DNA of 64,000 nt from Rhodamnia argentea. Taxonomy: Eukaryota; Streptophyta; Magnoliopsida; Myrtales; Myrtaceae. Positions 1 to 52,372 of the stretch are shown one piece after another. A program made the position numbers and the translations under genes. Location of the stretch: assembly GCF_020921035.1 (NCBI RefSeq), contig NC_063152.1, positions 9,438,001-9,502,000 of the forward strand. The letters are read 5' to 3'. The stretch's first letter is position 1, and every line of letters starts with the position of its first letter. The notes under the pieces are model-generated. The model saw only the letters and a list, made by a program, of their open reading frames with translations, did not search any database and was not told the origin of the DNA.

Positions 1-734
1 AAAAAAAAAATCGTGCCTTAATTAGGAGTGTGATGTCAAAACTTTAGTGGAATTTCATAAATGATATTATTTATCCGATAAATAAGATAAATAAGCATGA
101 AGCGGGCGTATCCTTTGCTTTGTTATCGGGCTAGAGTGAACTCATTACTATGACCAAAATATTCCTATCCCGGTACTTCCATAACATATTGACCTCTCAA
201 CGAATTTTCATTTCACAAGAAATTTCAAATTAGCATCCGAAACCTAGATTGATGTCTTTATAACCTGTATGCATGTATTGGAGACAATCGAAACCGCCCT
301 CAATTCTCGAGTTGTGTTCTTGACATCGTCCTCCAATTTCAATACGGCCTTGACGGATCCCCAAACCGGTCCTTGCCCTTTGGACGGTGATTCGGTCTTA
401 GATGCTTGGTCCGAAACCGAACTATCGTCGGGAGATACTTCTGACAACTTATCAGAAGCGACCATTCGTGGAAAGGTCTGCCCAGCACATACGGTCTTTG
501 AGAAGGATTCATCTTCGGATTAGGGTCGGGGATACCGAATCCGGAAGGAAAATTGATTTGAAGGGAGCATACCTTGTGGCATTAGTTTCGAGATTTTTTG
601 CGATGTGAAAATTAGTTTCAAAGATAAATGTGCCGCGGGATACTGATTAATAATTTTTTTTAATACTTTAATTGGTGGGTGCGGATAATAATGAATTTCG
701 CTCCAATGGCAAGCGTGGACGGCGTCGACGTTTT
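1..734. other. Far-upstream region of VAL3 copy 1
   Basis: AT-rich non-coding DNA homologous to 24470-25180 and 40350-41065. It begins inside the tandem unit, so the window opens part way through a repeat. The only coding-like content is a short exon-like ORF on the minus strand (265-477), listed separately. I see no other gene here. Confidence 0.7.
265..477 (-). other. Exon-like ORF, possible captured gene fragment (copy 1)
   Basis: On the minus strand a 213-nt open stretch (71 codons, phase 0 at both ends) is bounded by an AG on its 5' side (plus-strand CT at 478-479) and a GT on its 3' side (plus-strand AC at 63-64 of the 200s, i.e. 263-264). The translation is acidic and Ser/Asp-rich at first, then more helical, and ends in CIQ. 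I do not recognise the family. The AG...GT framing and phase suggest an internal exon of some gene carried here, not a complete gene. The plus-strand frame is also open (269-523), so coding status is uncertain. Copy 3 keeps it open; copy 2 has stops. Confidence 0.3.
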
Positions 735-1166
735 AGAGAGAGAGAGAGAGAGTTTGAAAAAAAAAAAGGAGAAAAAAAAAACCGAAACAAGAAAGGCATC
801 AGTAGAGAGAGAAACAAGAGAGAGAAAGGGGGGGCGAAGCCAAAACTGAGGCACGACTCGACGTGCTTTTAAAGCCTCTCGCGCACACACAACGCACCAC
901 CCACGCACGCACGAATTTCTACTTCTTCTCTCTCTCTCTCTCTTCGCAAAACCCTCTCTGTCTTCGATCTCCTTCTCTCTCTCTCTCTCTCTGCTTTCTC
1001 TCTCTTCTGTGATTGCAGATCAGGCTCGCACGCCACTCCATTGCACATCCCCGAGCTCCTCTCTCCACGGCGACTGCTTCCTCGCTTGAATTTGGGGATT
1101 ATGCATTGCTTCCGGCCGTAGACCGCATCTCCCGCTGCTGCTGCTGCTGCTGCTGCTGCCGCGGCG
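735..1166 (+). promoter_or_regulatory. 5' leader/promoter-proximal region of VAL3 copy 1
   Basis: A GA tract (735-752) is followed by long CT-rich tracts (about 918-1010) and a CTG trinucleotide run (about 1135-1160) just before the ATG. A TTTTAAAG motif near 866 could serve as a weak TATA element. GA/CT tracts of this type are common in plant 5' leaders and can bind BPC/GAGA factors; that role is inferred. Equivalent regions precede copies 2 and 3, with different tract lengths (copy 1 has one more CTG repeat). Confidence 0.55.
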
Positions 1167-4100
1167 ATGGCGGCTCCTGCCCCACCTCCGGCTTCGAGCT
1201 CGGCCTCGGCGAAGGCCTGCTTCAACCCGGAGTGCTCGGAGGCGAAGCCGGAGAGACCTAGGAAGGGCTGGCGGCTCCGCGCCGGGGACTCCGCCGAACT
1301 CTGCGATCGATGCGCGTAAGCCTGGCTTTCTATCTTTTTCTACTCTCTGTTGACCATTTCGGTGTTGTTGACTCTCGTCGTGTTGTTCGCGAGCGTTGGT
1401 CTGGTTGAAGCGTTTTTTTAGTTCTGTTTGGTCAGTGTTTTGTGGTAGTTGAGCTGGGGAGTGACGTTTCTCATGGTAGTTTTGGTTTAACGTTTGTTGA
1501 CTTGGTTTGGAGTTATTGCTACGGGCGCTTTTGTGTGCGCTGGTACGGTCACGTGATGAGTTTAATATTGCGAAAGGATTTGGAGATTCACCGCCTTTTC
1601 TGGTATGTAGAGTCTAATATGGAAGGAGTATTATTGAATTACAGAACTTAAGTGAGTTGCCATCCGCTGTTCCCTTTTGGTACATTCGTCTCTACTTTTG
1701 GAGGGGAGTAGTAGAATCAGAAACGACTTGAATTGCTCTTTGGATTTTGAAGGACTTCTTCACTTTTGGAGAGTGTAGTTTATTGGGAAGCAAAAGAGCT
1801 TCAGCCTGACCCACTCGGAGGGCATGCATGATCTTGTCGTACAATCTGTGGCATCTGCGCTCAAGACCACGCCTCGCTTCCCTAACAGATTCAGTTTTAG
1901 TCCAAGAGAAGATCAAAATTGCTCCTTTTGCTCTTTAAGTGAACTCTCTGCGCAGTCATTTGCACAGGTTAATATGAACCATTTCAGAGTGGTATCTAGC
2001 TAGTCCTGGTTGAGCAAGTAGAAGCATGTTTCAAGGCGGGAAAATGGTTGTGGCTAATGGGAAACGTTTGCCATGTTACTTTCTATGGCCTTGTTCAGTT
2101 CCTTTAGCATTTTGACTACTTCCATCTGAAAGTTTGCAGTGTGCAGAGAGTTTGCATTTTACATATCAGTCAAAGCAAATACTTGGTCCATGGCTCCTCA
2201 AACTATTCGAAAATTTCTGGCTAGAATTTTTTCTTTAATTGAACGTTGTAACTTTTATGAGAGGTTGCAAACATCAGTGATATCACTAGTTGCAGTTTTC
2301 CGTTCTCCGTTCACTGGTGGACCATTATCCCATTCAACGTTCCCTGTTGCCAGTCCATGCTTGCCACATTTTGGTGCTATAACCACTGTGGAAGGGAAGA
2401 AACTGCTTGAAGAGGCACATGTGGAATAATCACTTTTCAATAAGCGTGAAATGGGAAGATCGAAACTTCCCTGCAAATTGGAGTGGTTTCCCTAGAATGC
2501 TTTAAAGCCAAGGCAAGGGGAGTTGTGCTTGCAGTTTGGGCATTATCAAAGCGACTTTGCGGCTCAAAGTCTTTCACATGGTGTTTCCAACACCTCATTG
2601 TTTTTTTCGAGGATATTTGCAACACCTCATTGTTGTCCCAAAGAGCTTGGTGGGCTCAAAGCTCATTTCAAATTTTTTTCCAAACTTACCTTAAATCATT
2701 CCTTTCTCGATTGAAACAGTTCTCTGTGTCCTTAATTTCTTTCTGCTATTCAGTTTGTGTAATCGATAGCTTAATCATGCATAGTCTTGCTATGATAGTT
2801 TTTTTCTTTCCTTAACTTCTTTCTTCAATTCAGCTAGAGGACTATTAATAGATTTTTCCCTTTTAACTTCTTTCTTCAATTCAGCTAGAGGACTATAAAT
2901 AGTTTTTTCCCTTTAGATTTTTGATATTTTTCTTGATTTAATTCAAAGTTTTTCATGTGGTAAACTCAAACTTCATAAATTTTACCCGTACGATTGGATT
3001 GGTTACTATATAAAAGAATTTGACTAGTGGGTGTGACTTGGGAGTGAACAGGTTCTGCAATGATCTATGTTAGATTTAGTCACAATCCCACATCGACTTT
3101 TTAGTTCACTGGGGAGGATGAACACAAAAGCCAAACAGTAAACTTGTAACCTTGAGCCTGAACTAAGGTGTCTTGAAAGAACATTTCTAGTTGAAGTTCC
3201 TTTCTAATATTTGAGGACACTTTAGAGTTAAGGTTTTCTTTATTTCGGCAATTTTGATATCTCAAATAATGGATTTGTTGAAGATCTTACTCCAAGTTCC
3301 TCTCTGCTTCAGGACTGTTTATGAGGAAGGCCGATTTTGCGAGACTTTTCACCCAAATGCTTCTGGTTGGAGATGTTGTGAATCGTGTGGGAAGGTGAGG
3401 AGAAAATTGACCCTAATGATGTATGCTTCTTAGTTGATACAAGTTACGTCAAATCGTTGTTTCGTTCTGTTGTGTTAGATGTCACAGTGATTGCTAAATT
3501 TCTTTTGCAGAGGGTACATTGTGGATGTATTGTCTCAGCTCTTGCATTTGCCCTGTTGGATCCTGGAGGAATTGAGTGCATGTCATGTGCTCGGAAAAAC
3601 TTAGTCTTGGTAATTATGAATCTCACTTTTATTGGGCATCTTTGGCAAGTCTAACTTATTAACCCCCATGTTCTCATCTATCCACCCAAAAATGAAAATT
3701 ACTCAAGTTCTGATCATCTTGTGTGGTTGTTATGCTTATGCTCGGCATTGGAATATACTTTCTTTGTTAGTATTTTACTGAGAGCAGATGTTGAGATGGG
3801 TATTTTCTGTCACCAATGTCCTTTTGAGAGCTATCTGTGAGGGAGCTGAATGGGACATTGTTTATGCACACAGGCTCTGCTTGGTAAACTAAGCAAAGAG
3901 GAGGGAATGAAAGTGGGTGAGGAAAATATGAATGTTCGTACATTTTTGTGAGAGAGATGCGGAGGGAAAATTTTTAATATAGACCAATTTTCATTCCCCA
4001 CCCCAAAATTTCCCCACCTCTTGAGTTGCCGAACGAAGTATAATATTTGAAACTACACACACTTAAGTTCCTCTAATTGGTGGGATATGCCTGGTCTTGG

Positions 4101-7100
4101 AGGTTGGATCACATACAATGTTGGTACATAGAACCAGCAGTTTCTTTAAAGATCACGGGGCACGCAAAGTGAAACTGAATATAGTAGCAAAAGAAAAGAA
4201 GAGCTACTGATGCAGTTTTGTCTCAGATATGCCATATTACTTTTTACTGGTATTTGACTTTTCAGCTTGGAGAACTGATGGACGACTTAGCAAGATAAAC
4301 CATGAGCGTCAGTTACAGTTTGATAAATTTGTTGCTTATATTTTGGATGTCTATTTGTAGCTTAACATGTGAAGCTTTTCCAAACCATCGCGCCTTGTCG
4401 TACAGCGATTATCTTTCCATCATAAGATGTCATTTATAAACATGTTTCTTGCTATAGGACTAAAGATGAAGCCAAAATTCTGGTGCTCTATGAGTTCACG
4501 TGCCAACAGCTAATTTGGGACATATTAAATAAGTTTGTGCTCTTCGCAATAATTTTTTAGCTTTATGTACCAATTAATAAGGTCCCTTGTTCTTTGGTGA
4601 TGAGAATAAAATACTAAGCTGTTATTCCTTCTTGGACTTCACTGCCTCTCTCCCCTCCCCTTCTTTTCACAGTCCTCTGGTAAAGCTAGGGGTATCATTT
4701 CCATATATCGTCTAACTTTAGTGGAACTTTGTTTCTGGCATTAGATTGGTATATGGTCATTTTTATGTACCACTTGAACAGCATATGTGCATGATGTTTT
4801 TCTCCCTATTCACCATCCTTCACTCGTGTGACATGACTTATAGATGAAGATGCCTCTCTTTTAAGTGAAGTACCAATTCCTTTTTCCCTTTCAGACTCCA
4901 AATCTGGCATGGTCACCTCTGCTTTTCCATGCACCTTTTCCTGATAGACTTAAGGAACTTTCTGTGAAAAATTGGAATCAATTAGCTGGATCAGGTCCTG
5001 TACCTTGGAGGCAGGCACCTACTCTTTTCAATACGTCCATTTCCCGTCCTGAGCTGCAGCCTAGGCCACCACACGATGCTTCTACAAGCATTGATCGATT
5101 TGGAGTTGGTGAAAGGTATTCTATTTCTTCCATGGACAGTAGGAGAATAGAAGACTTCTCCAACAGATTTATGAATGGAAATATGAAGCTTGGTGCAGTC
5201 GAGAAACTTGAAAATGGCATTGCAGGTATTGCTTTTCATACTGATGATCATGCGAGGACAATCTAGGGGGTTCTTGAGATAAACTCCCGCATTCAACATT
5301 TTCTTACAGGACCTAACAGCAACGAGCACCTAAATCCATGCAAGATCAATCCTCAACAGTTGACCACTGTGAAGGAGGACCCATCTACTCCAACATATGG
5401 ATTGGCTGTGCCGCTTGCTTCAGGCAATGAATCAAATGGTCACATAGGACTTCCTGGGCCACATTTTCGGCCAGCTCCACCCCCGACGCTGGCAAAGCAT
5501 ATCTATGGAAGTATGCTCAATGATACTAACTCATCTGTTGAAAGTCATACGCGTAATGGAAGGCCTCGAGGGGATGCCAGGGGAAGGAATCAATTACTTC
5601 CTCGTTACTGGCCCAGGATAACAGATCAAGAGCTACAACAAATCTCTGGAGAGTATCCTTTTGTTCTATGTGCTTTTATTGATTTATAGCAGCCCGTAGG
5701 AAGATGAAATGTATACCTTTCTCTATATTATTGTTTTTGGTGTTTTCCCTGAGAAAGTAACTATAACATGTCAATAGAACAAAGGTTACAATTTCAATAG
5801 ACCGGATGAAAATGATTTTCAGTGACTGTTCATCATTTAATACCCAACTCTTTAGCTCATTACGTTTTTTTTACTTTTATTACTTGTTCAGTACAATATC
5901 AGCATGGTGGAAGGTTCAATTTCACCTCTACTAATAATTAGCATTCACGGTCCTATTTCTTAACTTTTATAAGCTCGAACTCTGTAATCACTCCTCTGTT
6001 CGAGAAAATGTTGAGTGCTAGTGACGCAGGTAAAATTGGACGTTTGGTGCTGCCAAAACAATGTGCTGAGGTAAAGACCTTCTTGGCTAAATTCTTACAC
6101 TGCTTTTGTTGTTCTCATTTCCCCTGGGAGAAACATCTTGGAATTGAAGTTTATTGTGGGTCTTTTGACTGTTTTTTCTGTGCAACTTTCAGTCTCAGAT
6201 ATTTCCCTATTTTCTTTGGACTTACCTTAAAACAAATGACACATAAAAACTTCAGCTCGCTGGAAATATGTTAATTTTGTGTTTACTTTCTCGAATTTTA
6301 GTTTATGTCCAGTACTCCCGGGTCTTGGATTGTTTTTTTGAATGATTAATGAGATTTCATTAAGAAGGTACCAAGGGGGTACCGCCCCTATACAAGGTGG
6401 CTTCTATATACACAAAGTTATCCACAAAAGACTGTTTCTAACATTTCCGACCAACTAGAAGTATGAAATTGGACTTCCTGCCATACAAGAAGTGAAGAGA
6501 TAAGGAATTTTTTACATCGCGATCGTATGAAGGCATTATTTGAGCAGTTCCTCCATTGCTTTAGACTAGTGGTTGAGCTTGCATATTGAACCAATTTAGA
6601 GCTGATTGGGGTGGCTTTGGTCTTTAACATTTTGTTTTAGCTTTTAATTGGGCACCGCAAAGCATGAAAACATTATCATCTAAAGTCATTTGGTATTTTT
6701 CCTTAAATGAGTTTTGAAAGTAGAATTAGTGTTCACCATCTGACAAGAGAGTAGAATTATGATGGGAAAGATGTAACAAGTCCTTTTTCTTGCACTTCCC
6801 TTGCGGGCTCTTCAACTTACTCCAGGTGGGGTCTACTTTGTTTAACAGGTGATTAGAGGAATTATATGTGGAGCAGTTAGGTATAAATATATGTTGACCC
6901 TTCAGAATTTGGTTGATAAAGCAAAAGTTATTTTGCTTGTCTCAGATTGAAATATGAATAAGGGCTTTTTGAGAACTTTGGAACATCTCTTGCATTTCCA
7001 AAACTTGGAATATCTCGTGTATGATTTGAATCTTGAAGGATATCTTCATCAAGGTTCTTGGGTGTTGGCATTGATATCAACATTCTTTTTTGAACTTTCG

Positions 7101-8419
7101 TCCATTTCCTGAAGTTGTAAAATGGGTCATTCCTCTTTTGGACCCTCTTCTGAAATTTTTGTCTTTACTTATTTAAAAAAAAAGTTCACGAGTGAAATTT
7201 TGGGACTGTACAGGCCAATTTTCCGCCTATTTCTCAGCCAGAAGGATTGCCTCTCAAAGTTCAGGATGCCAAAGGCTCAGAGTGGATATTTCAATTTCGA
7301 TTCTGGCCCAATAATAACAGTAGAATGTATGTTCTGGAAGGAGTCACGCCATGCATACAGTCCATGCAGTTGCAAGCAGGAGACATTGGTAAGATACTTA
7401 CAGTTGCGGAATAGGATGCCTGAAACTCGGTATTTTATTCTATAGGAACTTTACAGGATTGGATAGTGCAGTACTACACTTATTAAAGCTTGTTGGGCAT
7501 AATGAGTAGGAGCATTGTTGTTCTTGACAAGACCTTTTGTCCTGAGTTACTGCTGCTGACAAATGTCATTGCCTTATTTCTGTGAGTTTTATATCCTTCT
7601 GGCTATAGGACTGAGATTTGATTTTGTTCCCTCTCAGTAACTTTTAGTCGGTTAGAACCAGAGGGAAAATTGGTCATGGGATTCAGAAAGGCTTCAACTG
7701 CTCCCCCATCTGATCAGGTCTGGACTTGCGCAATAATTGACTTTTCCTGGCTTTATTTATGTACATGCTAGACCTCAGAGATATCATACTGGTTTTCCTG
7801 CAATATAAACCTAACACTTTGTTTATATTGCTTAGTTATGCTGTTGGTTATCTGAATCCTATGCCAATGTTGGTTGTTTGAATTTTCTAGAAGAAATAAA
7901 GCTTTATATAGCATGTCTGTTTCAATGTGCTTCAGATTAAATTGAAACATAAATGATTTATTTTCATCTTGCTGCAGGAGAATGAAACGGCTAAGAGTAG
8001 CAATGGAGTTACTGTGCAAGACGTGAGTACGATTCAATGGTTGACATTTTAAATTTGGGATCTTTTGTTCCAAAAGCAGTCCAGTCCATGATTCTAAGCC
8101 TTTTCCCTCCAATCTTTTGCTCTTTGTTCATTGACAAGACTCAAATTCTGTATAATTGCTGTGACTGTCTCATACTGTGAAACGGCAGAATATGTAAGCA
8201 AGCATATTTGTTCTTCCAATGCTGCAGGTCAAAGCATTCGTCTTGGAACCCGGTCCGCGCATTGACGACCCAACTAAGGAAGGCATCATAGATACGGATG
8301 GCGAAGTTTTGGCTAAAGGAAATGGAACATTTAAGTCCGGGCACAAGACAATGATGGCATATGATAGGCTTGTAATTACTGTGGACCAAGGTTTAGCTAC
8401 TGTCTTTTCCCGCATCTGA
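1167..8419 (+). CDS. Chimeric VAL3 (PHD-like + B3) fused to sphingosine-kinase C-terminal exon, copy 1
   Basis: Predicted coding exons: 1167-1315, 3313-3394, 3511-3609, 4895-5225, 5310-5652, 5974-6070, 7214-7388, 7638-7717, 7978-8022 and 8228-8419. All have GT/AG borders and consistent phases, giving 530 aa. Exons 1-3 encode the Cys/His-rich PHD-like module of VAL proteins (CFNPEC ... RVHCGCI). Exons 6-8 encode a full B3 DNA-binding domain ([20 protein letters not shown] ... [17 protein letters not shown] ... GFRKA). After exon 9 the sequence leaves VAL3: the last 63 residues are the C-terminus of a plant sphingosine kinase ([19 protein letters not shown]). CW, Cys-rich and EAR elements are absent. 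In VAL proteins B3 binds RY elements to repress seed genes; the chimera should keep DNA binding but lack the chromatin-reading and repression parts (inferred). The conserved AYFP of B3 is ANFP here. Expression is unknown, and it may be a pseudogene. Confidence 0.75.
2814..2915 (+). repeat. 51-bp tandem duplication in VAL3 intron 1
   Basis: Two adjacent 51-bp copies (2814-2864 and 2865-2915) begin AACTTCTTTCTTCAATTCAG and differ at few positions. The same doublet is present in intron 1 of copies 2 (about 27269-27370) and 3 (about 43172-43273), so it predates the array. Confidence 0.8.
8228..8419 (+). other. SPHK: Sphingosine-kinase last exon captured into VAL3 copy 1
   Basis: A 192-nt exon preceded by a good acceptor (TGCTGCAG) and ending in TGA encodes 63 residues. 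Its motif [11 protein letters not shown] matches the D-x-DGE motif near the C-terminus of sphingosine kinases, and TVDQGLAT fits plant SPHK tails. No upstream SPHK exon lies within the unit, so no kinase catalytic domain is present. It starts in phase 0, matching VAL3 exon 9. The family call rests on recalled sequence plus conserved synteny; a homology search would settle it. Confidence 0.72.
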
Positions 8420-10084
8420 AAACTTCTCGTCCCACATTATGATTGTTTCAATATGTCATTATTCGTTAAGTTATCATGAAAAAGAATTCCCGTTTATTAA
8501 TGGTCTTACCAGATGGGATGTATTGACTAATTCACGTGACCGCGTGGGGGAATTATGCAAAAGAAACACGACAGGATAATATTCATACTAGTCCTGTGTT
8601 GAACAGGCTTGAGAGGCATATCAACTGTCCTCAATGGAAGCATTCCCAGATTATCGGTTGCTTTTGGTTTGATTTTCCTCTACAGCAGATTTTGGTTTTC
8701 ACAAGTTTAGTTCACTGCGATCCCATTTGCTGAGCAAGAGCGTCTTTCTCCTTCCTGAAGGACCGAAAACTGTAATCATGAGTGCATTGAATGGAGAATT
8801 TACAGGTTCAGCTAGTTTGAAGGTTTCTGCTTCTATTGCTTGATCAGGCTAGCTTTTATAGTTTGGAGCAGAATTAGATATTGGGAGATCTCGAATCACT
8901 CTCGGCATGTCCCACGATCGTTCCTCTGCATCGATTGAGTGTCGGTTAAATTTCAATCGCGTTCGGTGGTGCATTGATTGATCAGGCTAGCTTTTTTTTA
9001 ACTTACTTGTTGTACTTCCATTGCAAAAACAAGAATGACTGTTGATTTATACTTTCTAAAGTTGAAACCGAGCTTGAGCTCTCGAAACTAAACTTAAGCT
9101 TGGACTCTAATGAACTTCCCTATCGCTCTGAAGGCTTTTGACAAATCAAGTTACAACGAGTTCAGATCGAGTATCAAACTCGAAGCATTCGCATCGAGTC
9201 AATTCGACTTTGGCTTAAATGAATTACATCCCATTAAAGGATTTAGATATCAATATCACGCATTCAACTCTGTTTAATTACATCAATTGACAATCATCTT
9301 ACTAATTCTACATGATATGTCGGATGTCTGTTTTCAATTCTCTCTAGATCCCTCGATTTGTCACTCCACTTTTTTTTAATATATATATAGTTTTCAACCT
9401 CTAATTTTAGGATAAATGTCGATTAACAAGTGAGGGAAAACATCGGGGTATTTGTAATATTAGGCAGTTGTTTCGTCTAGGAACGGTTTTTTCATTACTT
9501 CCACTCATCTTTACATGAGAAATTTATTGCATGGATCTCGTGTGCATGGGCACAATTAATTTTAATTGTTAAATCATGTGAATTTCACGTGGGATCTGTC
9601 TTTTTTTTTTCATTTGACCGATGAACTCTAATCTCATGTGCTTCAAGGGCATGCAAGTATTGCTTTTGCATCGGAGCGAGGAGATGAACTTCTTCGGTGA
9701 TTGTCTTCGTATCATGCCGTCTATTGCTTTCACCTACCTTTATTGTTCATGCGTCCCGCCCCCGGCAAGTGAAGATAAGCGGGCCCCGTCCCTCTGCGAT
9801 GCGGATTCTCCGTCACGCGATGTGCTTCGATAAACATCTCGATCTATCTCAACCGTCGATACGAATTCGTTTTCGAAAATGAACGCCGGAGCGTTGATCG
9901 AGATATTAATCAAGGCGGCGCGCTGGGGAAATGACCCAAATCCATCCTTCCGCACCTTCAAACATCTCCCCATCCGATCTTGCTTTGACTTTTTGTTCAC
10001 ACAACATTGAGTCGTTCTTTTTTGTCGCATCTCGACTTTTCCGAAATGTTTCCCGTTGACTACAAGAAAGATTTTTCCGATTTA
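8420..10084. other. Intergenic DNA after chimeric copy 1 (SPHK 3' flank)
   Basis: This should include the SPHK-derived 3' UTR and polyadenylation region. It is homologous to 32874-34538. Up to about 9050 the two copies are nearly identical; from about 9100 onward they differ at roughly one base in twenty by eye. Short ORFs around 9600-9990 are not supported as genes. Confidence 0.6.
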
Positions 10085-10089
10085 CTTTT
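10085..10089. repeat. Target-site duplication (left) CTTTT
   Basis: CTTTT abuts the left LTR and is repeated at 17888-17892. The empty homologous site between copies 2 and 3 (about 34536-34550, TTTACTTTTAAATTG) carries a single CTTTT. Confidence 0.92.
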
Positions 10090-10468
10090 TGTTGGATACT
10101 AAATCCGATCTAACACATACTCAAAACAGCGAAAACATGCACAATAGATCACCGGATTCACCGATCGATGAAGATACATCACGAGAACGTACCTTATTGA
10201 TCACCGGTTAAATGCCCTTTGCGATTTCGGAGGATTTCTCTGTCAAACGATAATCGACAATGGGAAGGAGCGTTCTACGTTCTCTATTTTCTTGAAAGTG
10301 ACAGAATGAACTTGTGAGAATGATGGAGAGCACGTCGGTTATTTGACGTTTATTCAACCAACGTGACTTTTCACGTTTGAGCGGATAATTGCTCAATGGA
10401 GTGTGGTTGCCCGTATGGGCGCACACCGTATCTCTTGTGGACCCCACTTTAATATATTTAATCTAATA
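10090..10468 (-). repeat. 3' LTR of copia element
   Basis: 379 bp, aligned end to end with 17509-17887. By eye I count about 19 mismatches (5%), about 16 of them transitions. This is the 3' LTR because the coding strand is minus. Confidence 0.93.
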
Positions 10469-10478
10469 TCTCCCACTC
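10469..10478 (-). promoter_or_regulatory. Polypurine tract of copia element
   Basis: On the coding strand GAGTGGGAGA lies directly before the 3' LTR, the position and composition expected of the plus-strand primer tract. Confidence 0.75.
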
Positions 10479-11572
10479 GCCCATGTAGGACAAACAACTC
10501 CTATTTGTCCACGGAGGACTAACAACTAAACCTTTTATCTTCGCAAAGTTCATATTGGCAAATAACCCGTGCGACTAGCATACACTGAGAGCTTGTTGTC
10601 ATATATCCGTTGGGAGTATATGACAGCTCTAAAATTGGACATAAAAAAGAAATGAATTGTATGTTGTACCCTAGATCGATCAGTCACATGTAAATTTCTC
10701 ACTAGATCTCATTTTAAAATTGACTTATTATATTCACAATTATGATTACACCAAATAATCATAATTGACCGGTCTGTGAATATAATTCATAATGTGACTT
10801 AAAACTCCAAATCAATCTTCCTCATTCATTAGATCTCTCAATCTCGGTTCAGCTCACTTTTCTAGAAATGTCCATTTAGATCGAATTAATTTCATGACCA
10901 TAGGCAACATCCTAAGATAGCAAACACTAAATAGAGATCTTGAGAATAATGAAGAGTCATGAGGGTACAAAAATGAGGAATTCTATCCTCGAGAGTCTCA
11001 CACGGCACGGAGAAGTTGAGATCAAAACTCTTGCCTGCTTTCATTGGTCAATAGTGCATACGTAATATGAAATACGTATTACGGTATGTTCTCCTTCCCT
11101 ATGGAGCGTATGTCTTTCTATTTTAATACCGTACAAATGTTCATCTTGACACACTCAGTATCTAACTTGAGTTCACGTAACAACTCTAGCCACGAGTTTT
11201 TCATCAGAACTCTCATCTGGCATTTAAGACGGATAAAGCGAAATATGTAGGTTATTTCACTTCCGAACATTGTAAGTAATAAGTCTTCATCTTAACATCA
11301 TGTTAAGGCGGTATTACTATTTTAAGCTTGAGCTCTCAATTATCACCTAGATAATAAGCTTAAAATTGCTTCATCTCTATTCACTACATAATAAATAGAG
11401 GTGGTTACCCGTGTGAGTGGGCTAACCTCTCATCCGTCCGACATACCTTTTTAACATATAGTGCACCAAGCATTAATATGCATGGATATCAAATAAACTT
11501 ATAGACTTTAATATTGATAAACAACATCATCAATTATTGACGTTCGGGGAAAAATTGCAAATATTCAATACA
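10479..11572 (-). other. 3' untranslated region of copia element
   Basis: About 1.1 kb between the RNase H stop and the polypurine tract. No ORF or recognisable domain is seen; AT-rich. Confidence 0.6.
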
Positions 11573-12010: not shown

Positions 12011-12019
12011 ATCTCCTCC

Positions 12020-14265: not shown

Positions 14266-14301
14266 TGGGAATTAAGCTTTTGTCCCTTTTCCAAATGGTT
14301 T

Positions 14302-17507: not shown

Positions 17508-17508
17508 A

Positions 17509-41510: not shown

Positions 41511-44500
41511 ATGGCGGCTCCGGCCCCACCTCCGGCTTCGAGCTCGGCCTCGGCGAAGGCCTGCTTCAACCCGGAGTGCTCGGAGGCGAAGCCGGAGAGA
41601 CCTAGGAAGGGCTGGCGGCTCCGCGCCGGGGACTCCGCCGAACTCTGCGATCGATGCGCGTAAGCCGGGCTTTCTATCTTTTTCTACTCTCTGTTGACCG
41701 CTTCGGTGTTGTTGACTCTCGTCGTGTTGTTCGCGAGCGTTGGTCTGGTTGAAGCGTTTTTTTAGTTCTGTTTGGTCAGTGTTTTGTGGCAGTTGAGCTG
41801 GGGAGTGACGTTTCTCATGGTAGTTTTGGTTTAACGTTTGTTGACTTGGTTTGGAGTTATTGCTACGGGCGCTTTTGTGTGCGTTGGTACGGTCACGTGA
41901 TGAGTTTAATTTTGCGAAAGGATTTGGAGTTTCACTGCCTTTTCTGGTATGGAGAGTCTAATATGGAAGGAGTATTATTGAATTACAGAACTTAAGTGAG
42001 TTGCCATCCGCTGTGCCCTTTTGGTACATTCGTCTCTACTTTTGGAGCGGAGTAGTAGAAGCAGAAACGACTTGAATTGCTCTTTGGATTTTGACGGACT
42101 TCTTCACTTTTGGAGAGTGTAGTTTATTGGGAAGCAAAAGAGCTTCATCCTGACCCACTCGGAGGGCATGCATGATCTTGTCGTACAATCTGTGGCATCT
42201 GCACTCAAGACCACGCCTCGCTTCCCTAACAGATTCAGTTTTAGTCCAAGAGAAGATCAAAATTGCTCCTTTTGCTCTTTAAGTGAACTCTCTGCCCAGT
42301 CATTTGCACAGCTTAATATGAACCATTTCAGAGTGGTATCTAGCTAGTCCAGGTTGAGCAAGTAGAAGCATGTTTCAAGGCGGGAAAACAGTTGTGGCTA
42401 ATGGGAAACATTTGCCATGTTACTTTCTGTGGCCTTGTTCAGTTCCTTTAGCATTTTGACTACTTCCATCTGAAAGTTTGCAGTGTGCAGAGAGTTTGCA
42501 TTTCACATATCAGTCAAAGCAAATACTTGGTCCATGGCTCCTCAAACTATTCGAAAATTTCTGGCTAGAGTTTTTCTTTAATTGGACGTTGTAACTTTTA
42601 TGAGAGGTTGCAAACATCAGTGATATCACTCTATCAGATATCAGTAGTTGCAGTTTTCCATTCTCCGTTCACTGTTGGACCATTATCCCATTCACCGTTC
42701 CCTGCTGCCAGTCCATGCTTGCCACATTTTGGTGCTATAACCACTGTGGAATGGAAGAAACTGATTGAAGAGGCACATGTGGAATAATCACTTTTCAATA
42801 AGTGTGAAATGGGAAGATCGAAACTTCCCTACAAATTGGAGTGGCTTCCCTAGAATGCTTTAAAGCCAAGGCAAGGGAAGTCGTGCTTGCAGTTTGGGCA
42901 TTATCAAAGCGACTTTGCAGCTCAAAGTCTTTCACATGGTGTTTACAACACCTCATTGTTTTTTTCAAGGATATTTGCAACGCCTCATTGTTGTCCCAAA
43001 GAGCTTAGTGGGCTCAAAGCTCATTTCAAATTTTTTTCGAAACTTACCTTAAATCATTCCTTTCTCAATTGAAACAGTTCTCTGTTTCCTTAATTTCTTT
43101 CTGCTATTCAGTTTGTGTAATCGATAGCTTAATCATGCATAGTCTTGCTATGATAGTTTTTTTCTTCCCTTAACTTCTTTCTTCAATTCAGATAGAGGAC
43201 TATTAATAGATTTTTCCCTTTTAACTTCTTTCTTCAATTCAGCTAGAGGACTATAAATAGTTTTTTCCCTTTAGATTTTTTATATTTGTCTTGACTTAAT
43301 TTAAAGTTTTTCATGTGCTAAACTCAAACTTCATAAATTTTACCTGTACGATTGGATTGGTTACTATATAAAAGAATTTGACTAGAGGGTGTGACTTGGG
43401 AGTGAACAAGTTCTGCAATGATCTATGTTAGATTTAGTCACAATACCACATCGACTTTTTAGTTCATTGGGGATGATGAACACAAAAGCCAAACAGTAAA
43501 CTTGTAACCTTGAGCCTGAATTAAGGTGCCTTGAAAGAACATTTCTAGTTGAAGTTCCTTTCTAATATTTGAGGACACTTTAGAGTTAAGGTTTTCTTTA
43601 TTTCAGCAATTTTGATATCTCAAATAATGTCTTTGTTGAAGATCTTACTCCAAGTTCCTCTCTGCTTCAGGACTGTTTATGAGGAAGGCCGATTTTGCGA
43701 AACTTTTCACCCAAATGCTTCTGGTTGGAGATGCTGTGAATCATGTGGGAAGGTGAGGAGAAAATTGACCCTAATGATGTATGCTTCTTAGTTGATACAA
43801 GTTACGCCAATTCGTTGTTTCGTTCTGTTGTGTTAGATGTCACAGTGATTGCTAAATTTCTTTTGCAGAGGGTACATTGTGGATGTATTGTCTCAGCTCT
43901 TGCATTTGCCCTGTTGGATCCTGGAGGAATTGAGTGCATGTCATGTGCTCGGAAAAACTTAGTCTTGGTAATTATGAATCTCACTATTATTGGGCATCTT
44001 TGGCAAGCCTAACTTATTAACCCCCATGTTCTCATCTATCCACCCAAAAATGAAAATTACTCAAGTTCTGATCATCTTGTGTGGTTGTTATGCTTATGCT
44101 CGGCATTGGAATATACTTTCTTTGTTAGTATTTTGCTGAGAGCAGATGTTGAGATGGGTATTTTCTGTCACCAATGTCCTTTTGAGAGATATCTGTGAGG
44201 GAGCTGAATTGTTTATGCACACAGGCTTTGCTTGGTAAACTAAGCAAAGAGGAGGGAATGAAAGTGGGTGAGGAAAATATGAATGTTCGTACATTTTTGT
44301 GAGAGAGATGCGGAGGGAAAATTTTTAATATAGGCCAATTTTCATTCCCCACCCCAAAATTTCCCCACATCTCGAGTTGCCGAACAAAGTATAATATTTG
44401 AAACTACACAGACTTAAGTTCCTCTGATTGGTGGGATATGCCTGGTCTTGGAGGTTGGATCACATACAATGTTGGTATACAGAACTAGCAGTTTCTTTAA

Positions 44501-47500
44501 AGATCACGGGGCACGCAAAGTGAAACTGAATATAGTAGCAAAAGAAAAGAAGAGCTACTGATGCAGTTTTGTCTCAGATATGCTATATTATTTTTTACTG
44601 GTATTTGACTTTTCAGCTTGGAGAACTGATGGACGACTTAGCAAGATAAACCATGAGCATCAGTTACAGTTTGATAAATTTTATTGCTTATATTTTGGAT
44701 GTCTATTTGTAGCTTAACATGTGAGGCTTTTCCAAACCATCGCGCCTTGTCGTACAGCGATTATTTTTCCATCACAAGATGTCATTTATAAACATGTTTC
44801 TTGCTATAGGACTAAAGATGAAGTCAAATTTCTGGTGCTCTATGAGTTCACGTGCCTACAGCTAATTTGGGACATATTAAATAAATTTGTGCTCTCCGCA
44901 ATAATTTTTTAGCTTTATGTACCAATTAATAAGGTCCCTTGTTCTTTGGTGATGAGAATAAGATACTAAGCTGTTATTCCTTCTTGGACTTCACTGCCTC
45001 TCTCCCCTCCCCTTCTTTTCACAGTCCTCTGGTAAAGCTAGGGGTATCATTTCCATATATCGTCTAACTTTAGTGGAACTTTGTTTCTGGCATTAGATTG
45101 GTATATGGTCATTTTTATGTACCATTCGAACAGCATATGTGCATGATGTTTTCTCCCTATTCACCATCCTTCGCTCGTGTGACATGACTTATAGATGATG
45201 ACGCCTCTCTTTTAAGTCAAGTACCAATTCATTTTTCCCTTTCAGACTCCAAATCCGGCATGGCCACCTCTGCTTTTCCATGCACATTTTCCTGATAGAC
45301 TTAAGGAACTTTCTGTGAAAAATTGGAATCAATTAGCTGGATCAGGTCCTGTACCTTGGAGGCAGGCACCTACTCTTTTCAATACGTCCATTTCCCGTCC
45401 TGAGCTGCAGCCTAGGGCACCGCACGATGCATCTACAAGCATTGATCGATTTGGAGTTGGTGAAAGGTATTCTATTTCCATGGACAATAGGAGAATAGAA
45501 GACTTCTCCAACAGATTTATGAATGGAAATATGAAGCTTGGCGCAGTCGAGAAACTTGAAAATGGCATTGCAGGTATTGCTTTTCATACTGATGATCACG
45601 CGAGGACAATCTAGGGGGTTCTTGAGATAAACTCCCGCATTCAACATTTTCTTACAGGACCTAACAGCGATGAGCACCTAAATCCATGCAAGATCAATCC
45701 TCAACAGTTGACCACTGTGAAGGAGGACCCATCTACTCCACCATATGGATTGGCTGTGCCGCATGCTTCAGGCAATGAATCAAATGGTCACATAGGACTT
45801 GCTGGGCCACATTTTCGGCCAGCTCCACCCCCGACGCTAGCAAAGCATATCTATGGAAGTATGCTCAATGATACTAACTCATCTGTTGAAAGTCATACGC
45901 GTAATGGAAGGCCTCGAGGGGATGCCAGGGGAAGGAATCAATTACTTCCTCGTTACTGGCCCAGGATAACAGATCAAGAGCTACAACAAATCTCTGGAGA
46001 GTATCCTTTTGTTCTATGTGCTTTTATTGATTTATAGCAGCCCGTAGGAAGATGAAATGTATACCTTTCTCTATATTATTGTTTTTGGTGTTTTCCCTGA
46101 GAAAGTAACTATAACATGTCAATAGAACAGAGGCTACAATTTCGATAGACCGGATGAAAATGATTTTCAGTGACTGTTCATCATTTAATATCCAACTCTT
46201 CAGCTCATTACGTTTTTTTACTTCTATTACTTGTTCAGTACAATATCAGCATGGTGGAAGGTTCAATTTCACCTCTACTGATAATTAGCATTCACAGTCC
46301 TATTTCTTAACTTTTATAAGCTCGAACTCTGTAATCACTCCTCTGTTCGAGAAAATGTTGAGTGCTAGTGACGCAGGTAAAATTGGACGTTTGGTGCTGC
46401 CAAAAAAATGTGCTGAGGTAAAGACCTTCTTGGCTAAATTCTTACACTGCTTTTGTTGTTCTCATTTCCCCTGGGAGAAACATCTTGGATTGTGGGTCTT
46501 TTGGCTGTTTTTTCTGTACAACTTTCAGTCTCAGATATTTCCCTATTTTCTTTGGACTTACCTTAAAACAAATGACACATAAAAACTTCAGCTCGCTGGA
46601 AATATGTTAATTTTGTGTTTAATTTCTCGCATTTTAGTTTATGTCCAGTACTCCCGGGTCTTGGATTGTTTTTTTGAATGATTAATGAGATTTCATTAAG
46701 AAGGTACCAAGGGGGTACCGCCCCTATATAAGGTGGCTTCTATATACACAAAGTTATTCACAAAAGACTGTTTCTAACATTTCCGACCAACTAGAAGTAT
46801 GAAATTGGACTTCCTGCCATCCAAGAAGTGGAGAGATAAGGAATTTTTCCATGGCGATGGTACGAAGGCATTATTTGAGCAGTTCGTCCATTGCTTTAGA
46901 CTAGTGGTTGAGCTTGCATATTGAACCAATTTAGAGGTGATTGGGGTGGCTTTGGTCTTTAACATTTTGTTTTAGCTTTTAATTGGGCACCGCAAAGCAT
47001 GAAAACATTATCATCTAAAGTCATTTGGTATTTTTCCTTAAATGATTTTTGAAAGTAGAATTAGTGTTCACCATCCGACAAGAGAGTAGAATTATGATGG
47101 GAAAGATGTAACAAGTCCTTTTTCTTGCACTTCCCTTGCGGGCTCTTCAACTTACTCCAGGTGGGGTCTACTTTGTTTAACAGGTGATTAGAGGAATTAT
47201 ATGTGGAGCAATTAGGTATAAATATATGTTGACCCTTCAGAATTTGGTTGATAAAGCAAAAGTTATTTTGCTTGTCTCAGATTGAAATATGAATAAGGGC
47301 TTTTTGAGAACTTTGGAACATCTCTTGCATTTCCAAAACTTGGAATATCTCGTGTATGATTTGAATCTTGAAGGATATCTTCATCAAGGTTCTTGGGTGT
47401 TGGCATTGATATCAACATTCGTTTTTGAACTTTCGTCCATTTCCTGAAGTTGTAAAATGGGTCATTCCTCTTTTGGACCCTCTTCTGAAATTTTTGTCTT

Positions 47501-50500
47501 TACTTATTTAAAAAAAAAGTTCACGAGTGAAATTTTGGGACTGTACAGGCCTATTTTCCGCCTATTTCTCAGCCAGAAGGATTGCCTCTCAAAGTTCAGG
47601 ATGCCAAAGGCTCAGAGTGGATATTTCAATTTCGATTCTGGCCCAATAATAACAGTAGAATGTATGTTCTGGAAGGAGTCACGCCATGCATACAGTCCAT
47701 GCAGTTGCAAGCAGGAGACATTGGTAAGATACTTACAGTTGCGGAATAGGATGCCTGAAACTCGGTATTTTATTCTATAGGAACTTTACAGGATTGGATA
47801 GTGCAGTACTACACTTATGAAAGCTTGTTGGGCATAATGAGTAGGAGCATTGTTGTTCTTGACAAGACCTTTTGTCCTGAGTTACTGCTGCTGACAAATG
47901 TCATTGCCTTATTTCTGTGAGTTTTATATCCTTCTGGCTATAGGACTGAGATTTGATTTTGTTCCCTCTCAGTAACTTTTAGTCGGTTAGAACCAGAGGG
48001 AAAATTGGTCATGGGATTCAGAAAGGCTTCAACTGCTCCCCCATCTGATCAGGTCTGGACTTGCGCAATAATTGACTTTTCCTGGCTTTATTTATGTACA
48101 TGCTAGACCTCAGAGATATCATACTGGTTTTCCTGCAATATAAACCTAACACTTTGTTTATATTGCTTAGTTATGCTGTTGGTTATCTGAATCCTATGCC
48201 AATGTTGGTTGTGTGAATTTTCTAGAAGAAATAAAGCTTTATATAGCATGTCTGTTTCAATGTGCTTCAGATTAAATTGAAACATAAATGATTTATTTTC
48301 ATCTTGCTGCAGGAGAATGAAACGGCTAAGAGTAGCAATGGAGTTACTGTGCAAGACGTGAGTACGATTCAATGGTTGACATTTTTAAATTTGGGATCTT
48401 TGGTTCCAAAAGCAGTCCAGTCCATGATTCTAAAGCCTTTTCCCCCCAATCTGGCAGGCTGAATTGGCAGATCCTAGTTCATGGTCTAAAGTTGATAAAT
48501 CTGGATACATTGCAAAAGAAGTTCTTGGGGCTAAATCTTCCTTGTCTAGAAAACGGAAGAATACTACCTTGGGTTCAAAAAGTAAGCGACTGAGGATCGA
48601 AAATGAGGACGTTATAGAGCTGAAACTAACATGGGAAGAAGCTCAAGGACTGCTTCGTCCACCTCCTAATCACACTCCTAGTGTAGTGGTAATTGAGGGC
48701 TTTGAGTTTGAGGAGTATGAGGTAAAATACTTGTTTAAATTTCTTCATATGAAATGAGCTGTTAACAAATTTTTGCATATTGGCTATGTACATGAATGCT
48801 TTCCCCTTTACCAAAAGGAGAGGCCACCTCTACCGGATAATTGTTCTATTGGAAAGCTATCGAGAATCTAATTAGCTTGGCTGACCAACACCCCGCACTT
48901 TGACTGTTATGGTTTGGGTGAACTGAAGGGGACCAAAAATTGAATGAATTTCTGTATGTGTGTATTGGGTTGTGTTCAGTGGTCCTTTTAGCTCTGAGAT
49001 ATTACACAGGATAAATAATGCTGCATGGAAAGGTTTCATCCTTGTTTGGAGATTGACTCGTTTCTTATGGCAGGATGCTCCAATACTCGGGAAGCCAACA
49101 GTTTTTAGGACAGATACTGTGGGGTAAAGTACTCTGTTTAGAGCTCCAAGCATTCCTTTTGTTTTTGTTAATGTCAGAATCGTGTTACATGAGTAAACTA
49201 CTTTGTTTGGTGCTCCAACCATTTCTTTTCGTAACTGTTCATGTCGAAATCTTGTTACATGAGTAAATGGAGTTGGCGTTCTGAACACATCATCTAGAGA
49301 TTATGGATGTATATTTATGGGATAAGCATGAAAACTAGTACACACCCAATACTAATTAGCATAAAATCTTGGAATCCTGAAACGATAGTGGCATTTTTAA
49401 AAAATCACTATCTTAATGAGAGATTCGTTTAGGTCCTCCATCATCCCTACAAACTTCTTCTTTGTAATGCTGCTGTCTCTGCTAAGAGTGAATCCCTATC
49501 ACTATATATTAAAGTAATATCCAAAGGGTTTGTGTTTGTTTTGTTCAAACATATTCTGAGGCGTATTTTTGTATCCCATGTGTATCAGTAAAAAGATTCA
49601 ATGGGCTCAATGCGAAGACTGCTTGAAATGGAGAAAATTGCCAGCTGATGCCCTTCTTCCCTCAAAATGGACTTGCGCGGATAACAGTTGGGAACCAGAA
49701 AGGTACTGTAGATTCCACTCTTTCCTTGAAATGGGTTATACAGCCGTCATGGCTTAGTCTTAGTGTGCATGCATAAATTTTAATGTCCCCATGAGCTGTT
49801 TGAAACTCATTTTTATTATAAGTTGTAGGATGCATTAGACTTGTAGATCTACAGTAGTCCTTTCTCTCTGTGGTACGAACTGGTAAGCTATTTGCAACTC
49901 TATCAATGAATAGGGAGCTTCGAGGGATATGATATTTCTCTGATTGCTGATTGTCACGACCCATCTGGTTTTACAGTTATAACTGAAAACCGCCGGGCCT
50001 GCTGACATGACCTCCATGTGTCAGACACGTGGCACCGCGTTGGCACCGCGTCACTGATCTATGGCTTTTTTCCTTGTATTGTCTTTGGAGCCTCTGGTTC
50101 TTTTATGCTATACTCATTAGAGAATGTCTTCCTTCTTTTAACTGTTGGTCATTTGGCCATTTAACCTTCACATTAGACAGAAATATGTTTATCACCTTGC
50201 TCATTCAATCCATAGCTCTAAGTATCATGTTTCTTCAGATCATCTTGCTCGGCAGCTCCAGACTTGACAGCAGAAGAGCTTGAAGATATGCTATCTAATA
50301 ATAATCCAGGTATGGTTTGCTTGGGACATGATAGATGGATAGACTTCCTGTACTTTAGTTTAGAACAATGCGACTGCCTGCACACTTATTCCATTACAGG
50401 TTACAGATTGCCTCTGTTGTGGCCTATGACTTTGTCATGTTGTCTTTGAACGGTACTGCATTTATAATCTTGGAAATGGACCATTCTAATGTGGAAACAA

Positions 50501-52372
50501 AATGAGTTAGATCCTTCAAGGAGGGGAAGTTTGGATTTGTTTGAGAAGTTGTTTACATGGCTTTGCCAAATGTGTACATAAGCAAATAGATTTGCGTCAT
50601 ACCGGTATTTAAACAAAAACAAATGTTTAATTGCCATATCCATAGCTATGTGCTATTACATGTGCGCACATATCCAAAAGATGATAACAAGACAAAAGTT
50701 ACTATCTGTTTCATAGCATTATTCGGAGCCTGAGATGTCTTTGCTCACAGAAGACCGCAGTCTTCTATTATGCATGGTACATGCATTACGGTTCATGCAG
50801 ATTAATCACTGTTTGCAATCCAGGATTTGTTTTATCGTCAACCTAATGGCAGTTGAAGGGTTCTGAAAATAGTAGTATTATTGAGTCATCTGGGGATAGC
50901 CCGTGTTCGGTGACTAGATTAACAACAAAATGAGGCTTTTCTTGCAAGAAATCTTATCAATATATGGACCTTGGCCTAGCAGCGAGTTATCCACCTGTGA
51001 CTGGAAAACCTGCAGATTTGAGACAGGGAAGCCTCTTTGGAAAATAGCAAGGGGAGCTGCAAACAGTGGTTAACCGTTGCATAGTGCGGATCCTCATGCG
51101 TGGGTGCTATTTCTAGGATGATGTATGAATGCCTGACAAAATTCCTTGATAGTAACTCACTTCCTTTAGTTTGGTAGCATGGAGTAAGAACTCCCAAGTG
51201 AACAGTGTAATCGGGACTGTCGAGAACAGATCAAGGGGTATTTGGTTGTTGCATAGCTCAGGTCGGAGCAGGGTGCCATATGACCTTGGACCCTGTTCTA
51301 TATTATATTGATCGAAACCTCTATATGGTTCAATAGAGGACCTGCCTAGGATTCTGTTGAATGAATAATAGTACGAGGTCTGAATCCAAAGTGACGAAAT
51401 TCCATCAAGCCTCTTTTTTTATTCTAGGCAACCTTATTCAACTGAGACTTTTCCCCAAAGGATGGGTGTGGGGTATGTTTTACTTTGTTCATGTGTAGGA
51501 AAATGAATGCTCAGCAAAAAGTTTGGTATATTGAATTACTGGTATCTTACGGTTCGATGGTTTTTCAACATTGATCTGATTTCCTATAATCAATCCATCA
51601 TTATGGTCGTGCAGCACCTTCTAAGAAAGCCAAGGCTCCTAAACAAGAGAGTATGGAAGCACTGGAGGGGCTCGACACTCTTGCCAACCTAGCAATCTTG
51701 GGAGAAGGCGAGACACTCCCATCATCTTCTTCGGCATCTCAAGCCACAACAAAGCACCCTCGACACCGACCAGGGTGTTCGTGTATTGTTTGTATACAAC
51801 CCCCTAGTGGGAAGGGCCCAAAACACAAGCAGACATGCACATGCAATGTCTGTCTGACCGTGAAGCGCCGTTTCCGCACCTTGATGCTGAGGCGCGAAAA
51901 GAAACAGTCGGAGAAAGAAGCGGAAGGTTCGCGCAAGAAGCCACAACACCAGAACCTATCACTTGCAGAAAAATCACCAGAAGACGACCCTTCACAGTGC
52001 AATAACAACACTGCAAATAGCAGCCCAAGCCAGAAAAAGATGGGTAATGATGGTTCTGATGACGAAATGAACAGGATTAAAAGCTCGGGTTCGCCTTTTA
52101 AAGGTCAGATCGATCTTAATATTCAGCCAGAGCGGGAGGAGGAGTTCTCGCCTGGGTCAGATTCTGGTGGTATGATGAGGTTGCTACATGATGCCACCCA
52201 GAAACTCAGGCAGAAAATTTCGACCTCAGACAGCTTTAGGAATTCCACAGGCGATCCTGCCAAGCTGGATCCAGATGGAGGCGAAAGGCTTGTCAGCGAC
52301 GTGGTAGAGAGTGGTCATCAAGAGGTCAACGAGGATCGAGCTAAAGCTTTGGCATCTACGGTGCACGAATGA
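41511..52372 (+). CDS. VAL3: VAL-family B3 transcriptional repressor, complete copy (VAL3/HSL2-like)
   Basis: Exons 41511-41659, 43671-43752, 43869-43967, 45246-45573, 45658-46000, 46321-46417, 47549-47723, 47973-48052, 48313-48357, 48458-48721, 49074-49123, 49589-49702, 50239-50309 and 51615-52372. Every phase matches; 884 aa. Order: PHD-like Cys/His module (about 17-110), B3 domain (about 335-445), conserved [14 protein letters not shown] segment (about 515), CW zinc finger (about 571-610: [15 protein letters not shown] and four Cys present), Cys-rich [15 protein letters not shown] (about 686-700), Lys/Arg-rich stretch, and an EAR-type DLNIQP motif (about 798). VAL proteins bind RY motifs through B3 and recruit Polycomb and histone-deacetylase activity to silence embryonic genes after germination. 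VAL3 is chosen over VAL1/2 from recalled similarity (GFRKAS..., FEFEEYE) and synteny with SPHK and VPS28. As I recall, Arabidopsis VAL3 lacks the CW finger that is kept here. Confidence 0.9.

Follow-up and report, generated by a model that had tools for sequence, protein, structure and literature searches.

How the 5′ part of a VAL-type B3 repressor gene came to be joined in frame to the final exon of a gene for sphingosine kinase (SPHK), and what such a gene might do, are the questions raised by a 64,000-nucleotide stretch of Rhodamnia argentea DNA (the window). The hybrid gene is present in the assembled DNA as two copies, and its structure, surroundings and divergence are considered in turn below.

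Structure of the two VAL–SPHK genes

The first copy (U1, positions 1167–8419, plus strand) joins VAL exons 1–9 to an SPHK terminal exon and encodes 530 amino acids. On the plus strand, the VAL exons occupy positions 1167–8022 (1167–1315, 3313–3394, 3511–3609, 4895–5225, 5310–5652, 5974–6070, 7214–7388, 7638–7717 and 7978–8022), and the ninth ends in phase 0. A hybrid intron of 205 nt follows (8023–8227, GTGAGT...TGCAG), after which the SPHK exon (8228–8419) supplies 63 codons and a TGA stop. Every intron between the ten exons has GT and AG ends, the phases agree and all 530 codons are open. The second copy (U2, 25622–32873, plus strand) has the same ten exons and protein length, with its hybrid intron at 32477–32681. 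In both copies, the start, splice sites and frames are intact, and there is no stop, frameshift or splice-site loss. The in-frame joining through a 205-nt hybrid intron into a phase-0 terminal exon, with 530 open codons, is therefore present in the sequence just as the original prediction described it.

The donor of the hybrid intron is that of VAL intron 9, and the same exon-9 donor also serves in the gene model that yields the exact R. argentea VAL protein. The acceptor appears to be that of the last SPHK intron, since similarity to SPHK begins at the first codon of the terminal exon and the frame just 5′ of it reads ...FVLPMLQ, with stops further up, where SPHK has ...SPRVIYMK. VAL intron 9 and the entry into the SPHK exon are both in phase 0, so that splicing of this intron gives an in-frame protein.

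The 63-residue tail matches plant sphingosine kinases (best E 1.2e-29; 92% to Psidium) and carries the C-terminal strip VKAF..LEPG..DGE..DQGLAT of these enzymes. When the tail was searched against plant proteins, as had been proposed, 53 of 62 scored candidates passed at E ≤ 1e-3; by their listed Pfam domains, 51 of these are SPHK-type and two are VAL–SPHK chimeras. The chimera thus resembles plant SPHK1/2 in its last 63 residues. Unlike them, it has no DAGK catalytic domain (PF00781) that a Pfam scan of U1 could find, whereas P0001 has one. Kinase activity of the product was rejected on this ground. In a comparison with solved structures, the alignment of human SPHK1 to P0001 covers just the first nine tail residues, and the rest of the tail lies beyond it.

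The N-terminal 467 residues are those of a VAL (HSI2/HSL) B3 repressor. The Pfam scan of U1 finds the N-terminal VAL zinc finger (PF25813, zf_VAL1_N; residues 61–108, E 2.2e-23) and the B3 DNA-binding domain (PF02362; residues 344–443, E 3.2e-16), and AtVAL1 B3 structures match the corresponding stretch of intact VAL. In contrast to these repressors, the chimera lacks exons 10–14, which encode the CW finger and the C-terminal region. The CW-type zinc finger (PF07496), which P0054 has at residues 575–617, was not found in the U1 chimera by Pfam. Also missing is the C-terminal IDLNIQP, which sits in the last exon of the full VAL copy and which we take to be an EAR-like repression motif.

The prediction holds for the identity of both halves and for their in-frame join, which make this at most a putative working fusion gene. 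Its statement that no other VAL–SPHK chimera is known was too strong, given the second copy at 25622–32873 and the VAL–SPHK proteins annotated in Eucalyptus globulus and Rubroshorea leprosula.

A tandem array with a repeated junction

The window also holds a full-length VAL gene (U3, 41511–52372, plus strand) with 14 exons, whose 884-aa product is identical to R. argentea P0054. The alignment of U1 to this gene ends at 8115/8116 in U1 and at 48452 in U3, five bases 5′ of native VAL exon 10 (which starts at 48458). The same breakpoint recurs in U2 at 32569/32570, inside the hybrid intron, and this recurrence places the chimeras at the junctions of an array. Unit 2 (8116–32569) runs from part of the last SPHK intron to VAL intron 9 and includes a later retrotransposon. 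Unit 3 (32570–48452) covers the same span without the retrotransposon and continues into the remaining VAL. Both units start at an identical SPHK intron position. This is the signature of tandem duplication: a common junction at the internal unit boundaries (two in the window) and an intact 3′-side parent at the end of the array. No intact SPHK gene lies upstream of the array inside the 64-kb window. An 11-base near-repeat (8060–8070 and 8112–8122) touches the U1 breakpoint; the parental SPHK intron falls outside this comparison.

The preferred explanation for this arrangement is that, in the ancestor, VAL had SPHK as its upstream neighbor in the same orientation. A segment comprising part of the last SPHK intron, the last SPHK exon and the intergenic stretch, and extending into VAL intron 9, would then have been duplicated head to tail, so that the ends of the duplication seem to have fallen inside two neighboring genes. 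The internal junctions would thereby place the SPHK last exon after VAL exons 1–9, and the last unit does continue into the remainder of VAL. We consider it likely that U1 and U2 arose at the junctions of such a duplication and evolve under relaxed constraint, and that their product, if made, would compete weakly with VAL. The locus offers a clean snapshot of a tandem duplication across two neighbors that gives rise to an in-frame chimeric transcription factor gene, since one 52-kb stretch shows the intact VAL parent together with both junctions and apparent traces of subsequent gene conversion.

A VAL 5′ part joined to an SPHK 3′ part would equally result if VAL had been upstream of SPHK, a local deletion had joined the two and duplication had come afterwards. 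However, gene order disfavors this explanation. Beyond the full VAL copy come a syntaxin gene and VPS28 (56208–56837, minus strand; PF03997, E 7.8e-73), a neighbor on the downstream side of VAL. The Arabidopsis locus numbers run SPHK1 (At4g21540), VAL3 (At4g21550) and VPS28-1 (At4g21560), which places SPHK1 and VPS28-1 on opposite sides of VAL3. Moreover, 8116–10089 has no further copy in the window besides 32570–34543, and both units begin at one SPHK intron position. Fusion by deletion is therefore highly improbable. The same gene order supports the VAL3 identity given in the original prediction, whereas the databases use the name 'Os07g0563300-like'.

Among the matches listed, the locus tags of SPHK and VAL are consecutive for 12 gene pairs from 10 species; the tags are non-adjacent in five species and two apart in Ulmus. 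Such tags show adjacency and say nothing on strand. Judged from them, the SPHK–VAL neighbor pair is found in many eudicots; the layout of the array in the window fits SPHK as the putative upstream same-strand neighbor of VAL.

The retrotransposon of unit 2 (10090–17887, minus strand; LTRs at 10090–10468 and 17509–17887) is presumably of the copia type, from the look of its ORFs. It is flanked by a 5-bp target duplication, CTTTT, and the matching empty site is seen in unit 3.

The two chimeric genes are far more similar to each other than their surroundings are. Over the tract from 1001 to 8900, U1 and U2 differ at 71 of 7895 sites (0.90%), whereas their flanks differ at 131 of 2176 sites (6.0%; p 7e-51), with a range of 3.9–12.1% in 17886–22885. 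This pattern suggests that gene conversion keeps the two copies alike. The similarity of the gene bodies was rejected as a measure of duplication age, because divergence in the flanks is 6–7-fold higher and the two LTRs of the unit 2 retrotransposon differ from each other at 19 of 379 sites.

Gene bodies that are ∼1% apart are also allele-like, and the retrotransposon is present in just one unit, as might be seen if haplotypes of a single locus had been set in tandem by the assembly and the copy number inflated. Against such an artefact, both chimeric junctions have an identical breakpoint and are set amid diverged flanks. One of the chimeras at least is therefore probably genuine, and we regard the artefact as very unlikely.

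Constraint and predicted product

Derived residues number nine in U1 (10 with one ambiguous), eight in U2 (nine) and one in U3, a difference with p values of 0.012–0.039 that is based on small counts. The probable reading is that amino acids change faster in U1 and U2 than in intact VAL, and that constraint is relaxed, although perhaps not absent. Several changes fall at strongly conserved positions: H63P in U2 (H in 119/119 at this column), K364Q in both copies (K in 118/119), Y369N in U1 (Y in 113/119) and tail P62R in both copies (P in 52/52). K364Q may be harmless, since AtVAL1 has alanine at the aligned site. Derived changes at columns with at least 95% conservation are few (2 of 11, where such columns make up 159 of 463), and exons are closer than introns to U3 (1.43% vs 2.33% in U1; 1.22% vs 2.35% in U2), so some remaining constraint on the chimeras is possible. 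Between U1 and U2, exons (0.79%) and introns (0.99%) hardly differ, although a dN/dS of 0.53 again leaves room for some constraint.

Relaxed constraint would also be expected if the units were pure pseudogenes, which share the origin by tandem duplication but are dead by-products, untranscribed or not spliced as predicted. Consistent with this, no R. argentea protein of the chimera architecture occurs among the matches listed (proteins of 292–927 aa), and AATAAA is absent from 8420–8900, which is a weak point in plants. A bacterial promoter and terminator scan of 8400–9000 gave nothing informative. However, neither copy has suffered a stop, frameshift or splice-site loss, and 1001–1500 of U1, a stretch that comprises the 5′ leader, exon 1 and the beginning of intron 1, differs from U3 by 1.2%. 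We doubt that the units are pure pseudogenes, while granting this a substantial chance.

If the two junction genes do yield a product, transcription would start from the duplicated VAL promoter. The protein would have the N-terminal zinc finger of VAL and its B3 domain but neither the CW finger nor the C-terminal region, and would end in an orphan SPHK strip. It would be expected to bind VAL target sites without recruiting CW-domain partners, and thus to act as a weak competitor of VAL and not as a lipid kinase. According to two reports (PMC9266683, PMC4232687), the VAL1 CW domain binds SNL co-repressors, the VAL2 CW domain binds HDA19, and VAL1 can pair with itself and with VAL2. These interactions make it plausible that a protein without CW would compete with VAL.

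A bolder proposal is that selection maintains an expressed, truncated B3 protein as a dominant-negative form of VAL, relieving the repression of seed-maturation or flowering genes. The retention of zinc finger and B3 with loss of CW, the CW partners and pairing just described, the exon–intron difference from U3 and the proteins of like polarity in E. globulus and Rubroshorea all fit this proposal, as do the intact frames, start and splice sites of both copies. However, chance often leaves frames open: in 68% of 4000 simulations (10 random exonic substitutions each, no indels) the frame stayed open, and the open frame was rejected as a sign of selection. The changes at H63 (U2), Y369 (U1) and K364 (both), the faster amino-acid change relative to U3 and the lack of a matching R. 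argentea protein among the matches listed also argue against it, and such a selected regulator is unlikely. Given this faster change and the absence of the chimera among the database proteins listed, decay or weak competition with VAL seems more likely than a new function that has become established. The case for function is weak, and caution is advisable with gene models at loci of this kind. The locus could serve to test whether truncated VAL proteins compete naturally with an epigenetic repressor.

Comparable chimeras and annotated VAL–SPHK proteins

Chimeric gene structures created by tandem duplication are described for Drosophila yakuba in one study (Rogers et al. 2017, PMC5460883). The present genes resemble them in this origin, and differ in being plant genes known here from sequence, with two junction copies apparently homogenized by gene conversion. 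For Oryza fusion genes, another report (Zhou et al. 2022, PMC9199173) names as the chief mode of origin the duplication of a parental gene with subsequent fusion, and finds >44% of the fusion genes expressed. That study concerns other genes in another lineage and used RNA-seq and knockouts. Among the literature matches listed, no title concerns a VAL–SPHK fusion, and the literature search found no paper naming both At4g21540 and At4g21550.

Since SPHK and VAL are neighbors in many eudicots, a like accident can recur, and two other species have annotated VAL–SPHK proteins. These are P0004 (E. globulus ACJRO7_021542) and P0012 (R. leprosula SLE2022_013470), both known as gene models alone. Like U1 and U2, they combine VAL sequence with a C-terminal portion of SPHK that comes after it. 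Unlike them, P0004 consists of parts of exons 1 and 4, exons 5–8, a 31-residue linker and a replaced end, whereas in P0012 VAL stops after residue 208 and SPHK resumes at residue 289 (S. laevis numbering). No further protein with both VAL and SPHK domains was found among the best 120 of 466 matches to P0012.

It could be proposed that the SPHK–VAL pair, old in eudicots, repeatedly yields VAL-5′/SPHK-3′ chimeras (in Rhodamnia, in Eucalyptus and separately in Rubroshorea), and that some are retained as B3 proteins that lack CW, compete with VAL and thereby weaken seed-gene repression, and that gene conversion holds uniform. We consider this general scheme quite unlikely. On a shared origin of the E. 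globulus and Rhodamnia chimeras, the evidence points both ways. At the three comparable stem sites (249, 256 and 364), the E. globulus VAL part is without the derived residue of U1 and U2. Pieces from the ends of the E. globulus protein, on the other hand, match two parts of the window: the intergenic stretch upstream of VAL, with a piece-level E of 5e-5 (7e-4 taken over the entire protein), and the 3′ flank of SPHK, with a piece-level E of 0.005 (0.25 over the entire protein).

Chimeric genes in a tandem array

The original prediction described an in-frame gene (U1, 1167..8419, + strand) in which exons 1–9 of VAL (1167–8022), a B3-domain seed-gene repressor gene (VAL3 by gene order), are joined through a 205-nt intron to a 63-codon sphingosine kinase (SPHK) terminal exon (8228–8419). 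Reading of the sequence and translation of the ten exons confirm these coordinates, the GT–AG introns, the matching phases and the open frame of 530 codons. The predicted SPHK character of the tail is supported by a protein search with residues 468–530. Among 62 candidates scored, 53 had E ≤ 1e-3; by listed Pfam domains, 51 of these 53 are SPHK-type, and the other two are VAL-SPHK chimeras. The top match is from Psidium guajava (E 1.2e-29, 92% identity). The SPHK-side exon boundary probably lies at the start of the terminal exon, since similarity begins with codon 1 of that exon and the translation immediately before it does not resemble SPHK.

When the window is compared with itself, positions 1–10089 recur at 24458–34543 (97.7% identity) and positions 1–8115 at 40342–48452 (96.8%). 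A second chimera, U2 (25622–32873, +), has ten exons as in U1 and an open 530-codon frame. The full-length VAL gene, U3 (41511..52372, +), continues beyond the breakpoint through exons 10–14, and its 884-residue translation exactly matches the R. argentea VAL protein P0054. The match between U3 and U1 ends at 8115, five bases short of native VAL exon 10, and the U2 breakpoint (32569/32570) falls at the equivalent position. By the same comparison, repeat units 2 (8116–32569) and 3 (32570–48452) start within the SPHK last intron and finish within VAL intron 9, which is the layout expected from head-to-tail duplication. If SPHK lay upstream of VAL on one strand, such duplication would place a VAL 5′ part before an SPHK 3′ part at every internal junction, and the last duplicated unit would run on as intact VAL. 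An intact SPHK parent would lie on the VAL strand beyond the upstream edge of the window. We conclude that the chimera, in-frame and present twice, probably arose at tandem-duplication junctions, a known kind of event of which this is a new and possibly recurrent example. At the boundary upstream of U2, a 564-bp segment is also duplicated locally in direct orientation (23453–24016 and 24027–24590, 98.4% identical); no second copy was found upstream of U3, where a single copy occupies 39910–40474.

The SPHK–VAL neighborhood and related proteins

Downstream of VAL are a syntaxin gene (53752–54678, +), VPS28 (56208–56837, −) and a SYF1-type splicing factor (59756–61489, +), the last seen as part of its ORF. 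The Arabidopsis loci are named in the cited text as At4g21540 for SPHK1 (PMC4327526), At4g21550 for VAL3 (PMC8136769) and At4g21560 for VPS28-1 (PMC13280217). Given this order and the position of VPS28 in the window, SPHK is expected upstream of VAL.

The adjacency of SPHK and VAL is old. Among the matches listed, locus tags read by eye are consecutive for 12 gene pairs in 10 species: Xanthoceras, Craigia (two), Pterospermum (two), Shorea laevis, Corchorus, Reevesia, Nyssa (where a second SPHK has a tag not beside the listed VAL), Pistacia (where VAL is represented by a short VAL-zinc-finger protein), Gossypium darwinii and G. mustelinum. The listed tags are two apart in Ulmus and not adjacent in five species (Camellia, Diplodiscus, Fragaria, Salix suchowensis and Hibiscus sabdariffa). 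Tags were drawn from the 53 tail matches, the best 120 of 1252 and the best 120 of 466, only some of which carry them.

The original prediction knew of no described VAL-SPHK chimera, but uniqueness would be too strong a claim, as the tail matches include two annotated examples. P0004 (Eucalyptus globulus ACJRO7_021542, 531 aa) comprises parts of VAL exons 1 and 4, exons 5–8, a 31-residue linker and an SPHK tail. It looks like a chimera with the Rhodamnia layout that is degraded or mispredicted. One segment at its start is similar to the window's intergenic DNA upstream of VAL (E 5e-5), and one at its end shows weak similarity to the SPHK 3′ flank (E 0.005). The linker is without explanation, and the last residues of the tail are replaced. 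P0012 (Rubroshorea leprosula SLE2022_013470, 470 aa) carries VAL residues 1–208 followed by a match to SPHK residues 289–488; these parts are 97% and 94.5% identical to S. laevis VAL and SPHK, respectively. Its polarity is like that of the Rhodamnia chimeras, whereas its breakpoints differ, and therefore, provided that its gene model is correct, it apparently has an independent origin. No further chimera was present among the best 120 of 466 matches to P0012.

Predicted product and constraint

A Pfam scan of U1 found the N-terminal zinc finger of VAL and a B3 domain, and neither a CW finger nor a kinase domain. The cited accounts of the Arabidopsis proteins state that the VAL1 CW domain binds SNL co-repressors, that the VAL2 CW domain binds HDA19, and that VAL1 can pair with itself and with VAL2 (PMC9266683, PMC4232687). 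By analogy, a putative CW-less B3 protein could compete with VAL. Among matches listed within 292–927 aa, where 90%-identity clusters give one name, there is no R. argentea protein of VAL-SPHK architecture, which weighs against annotated expression.

The chimeras are likely under relaxed constraint. Across exons 1–9, replacement and silent changes number 7 and 4 for U1–U2 (dN/dS 0.53), 11 and 9 for U1–U3 (0.36), and 10 and 7 for U2–U3 (0.43). Exons differ from U3 less than introns do (1.43% versus 2.33% for U1; 1.22% versus 2.35% for U2), whereas between U1 and U2 the exon value is hardly lower (0.79% versus 0.99%). Polarized with Syzygium and Corymbia, and with a one-codon deletion in U3 set aside, derived residues number 9 in U1 and 8 in U2 (10 and 9 with one ambiguous site each) and 1 in U3, an excess in the chimeras with p values of 0.012–0.039 in exact tests. 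Altered residues include H63 in U2 (H in 119/119 listed VAL proteins), K364 in both chimeras (K in 118/119), Y369 in U1 (Y in 113/119) and tail P62 in both (P in all 52 other tail matches, P0012 among them). The K364 change may be mild, since AtVAL1 has alanine at this site. Full decay of the chimeras is disfavored because only 2 of 11 derived sites fall at columns at least 95% conserved, compared with 159 such columns among 463. The open frames themselves are little proof of constraint, since in 4000 simulations of 10 random substitutions, indels excluded, 68% kept an open frame.

Probable later exchange, and insertion

Within 1001–8900, a tract whose limits were set after the profile was seen, U1 and U2 differ at 71 of 7895 sites (0.90%), versus 131 of 2176 (6.0%) in the pooled flanks (1–1000 and 8901–10089; p = 7e-51). 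This likeness is most simply explained by gene conversion, or some equivalent exchange, between the two chimeras, and not by coding selection, because the tract spans the unit junction and takes in introns. Positions 7001–8000 of U1 differ from U3 by only 0.2–0.6%. Intergenic divergence per 500 bases is 3.9–12.1% over 17886–22885 and 0.2–2.3% beyond.

The first intergenic unit contains an LTR retrotransposon at 10090–17887 (10085–17892 with its target duplication), presumably copia-type from the look of its ORFs. It inserted into unit 2 with a 5-bp target duplication (CTTTT), and unit 3 keeps the empty site. The two LTRs show 19 differences over 379 sites, and its coding part, on the minus strand, is broken into several ORFs.
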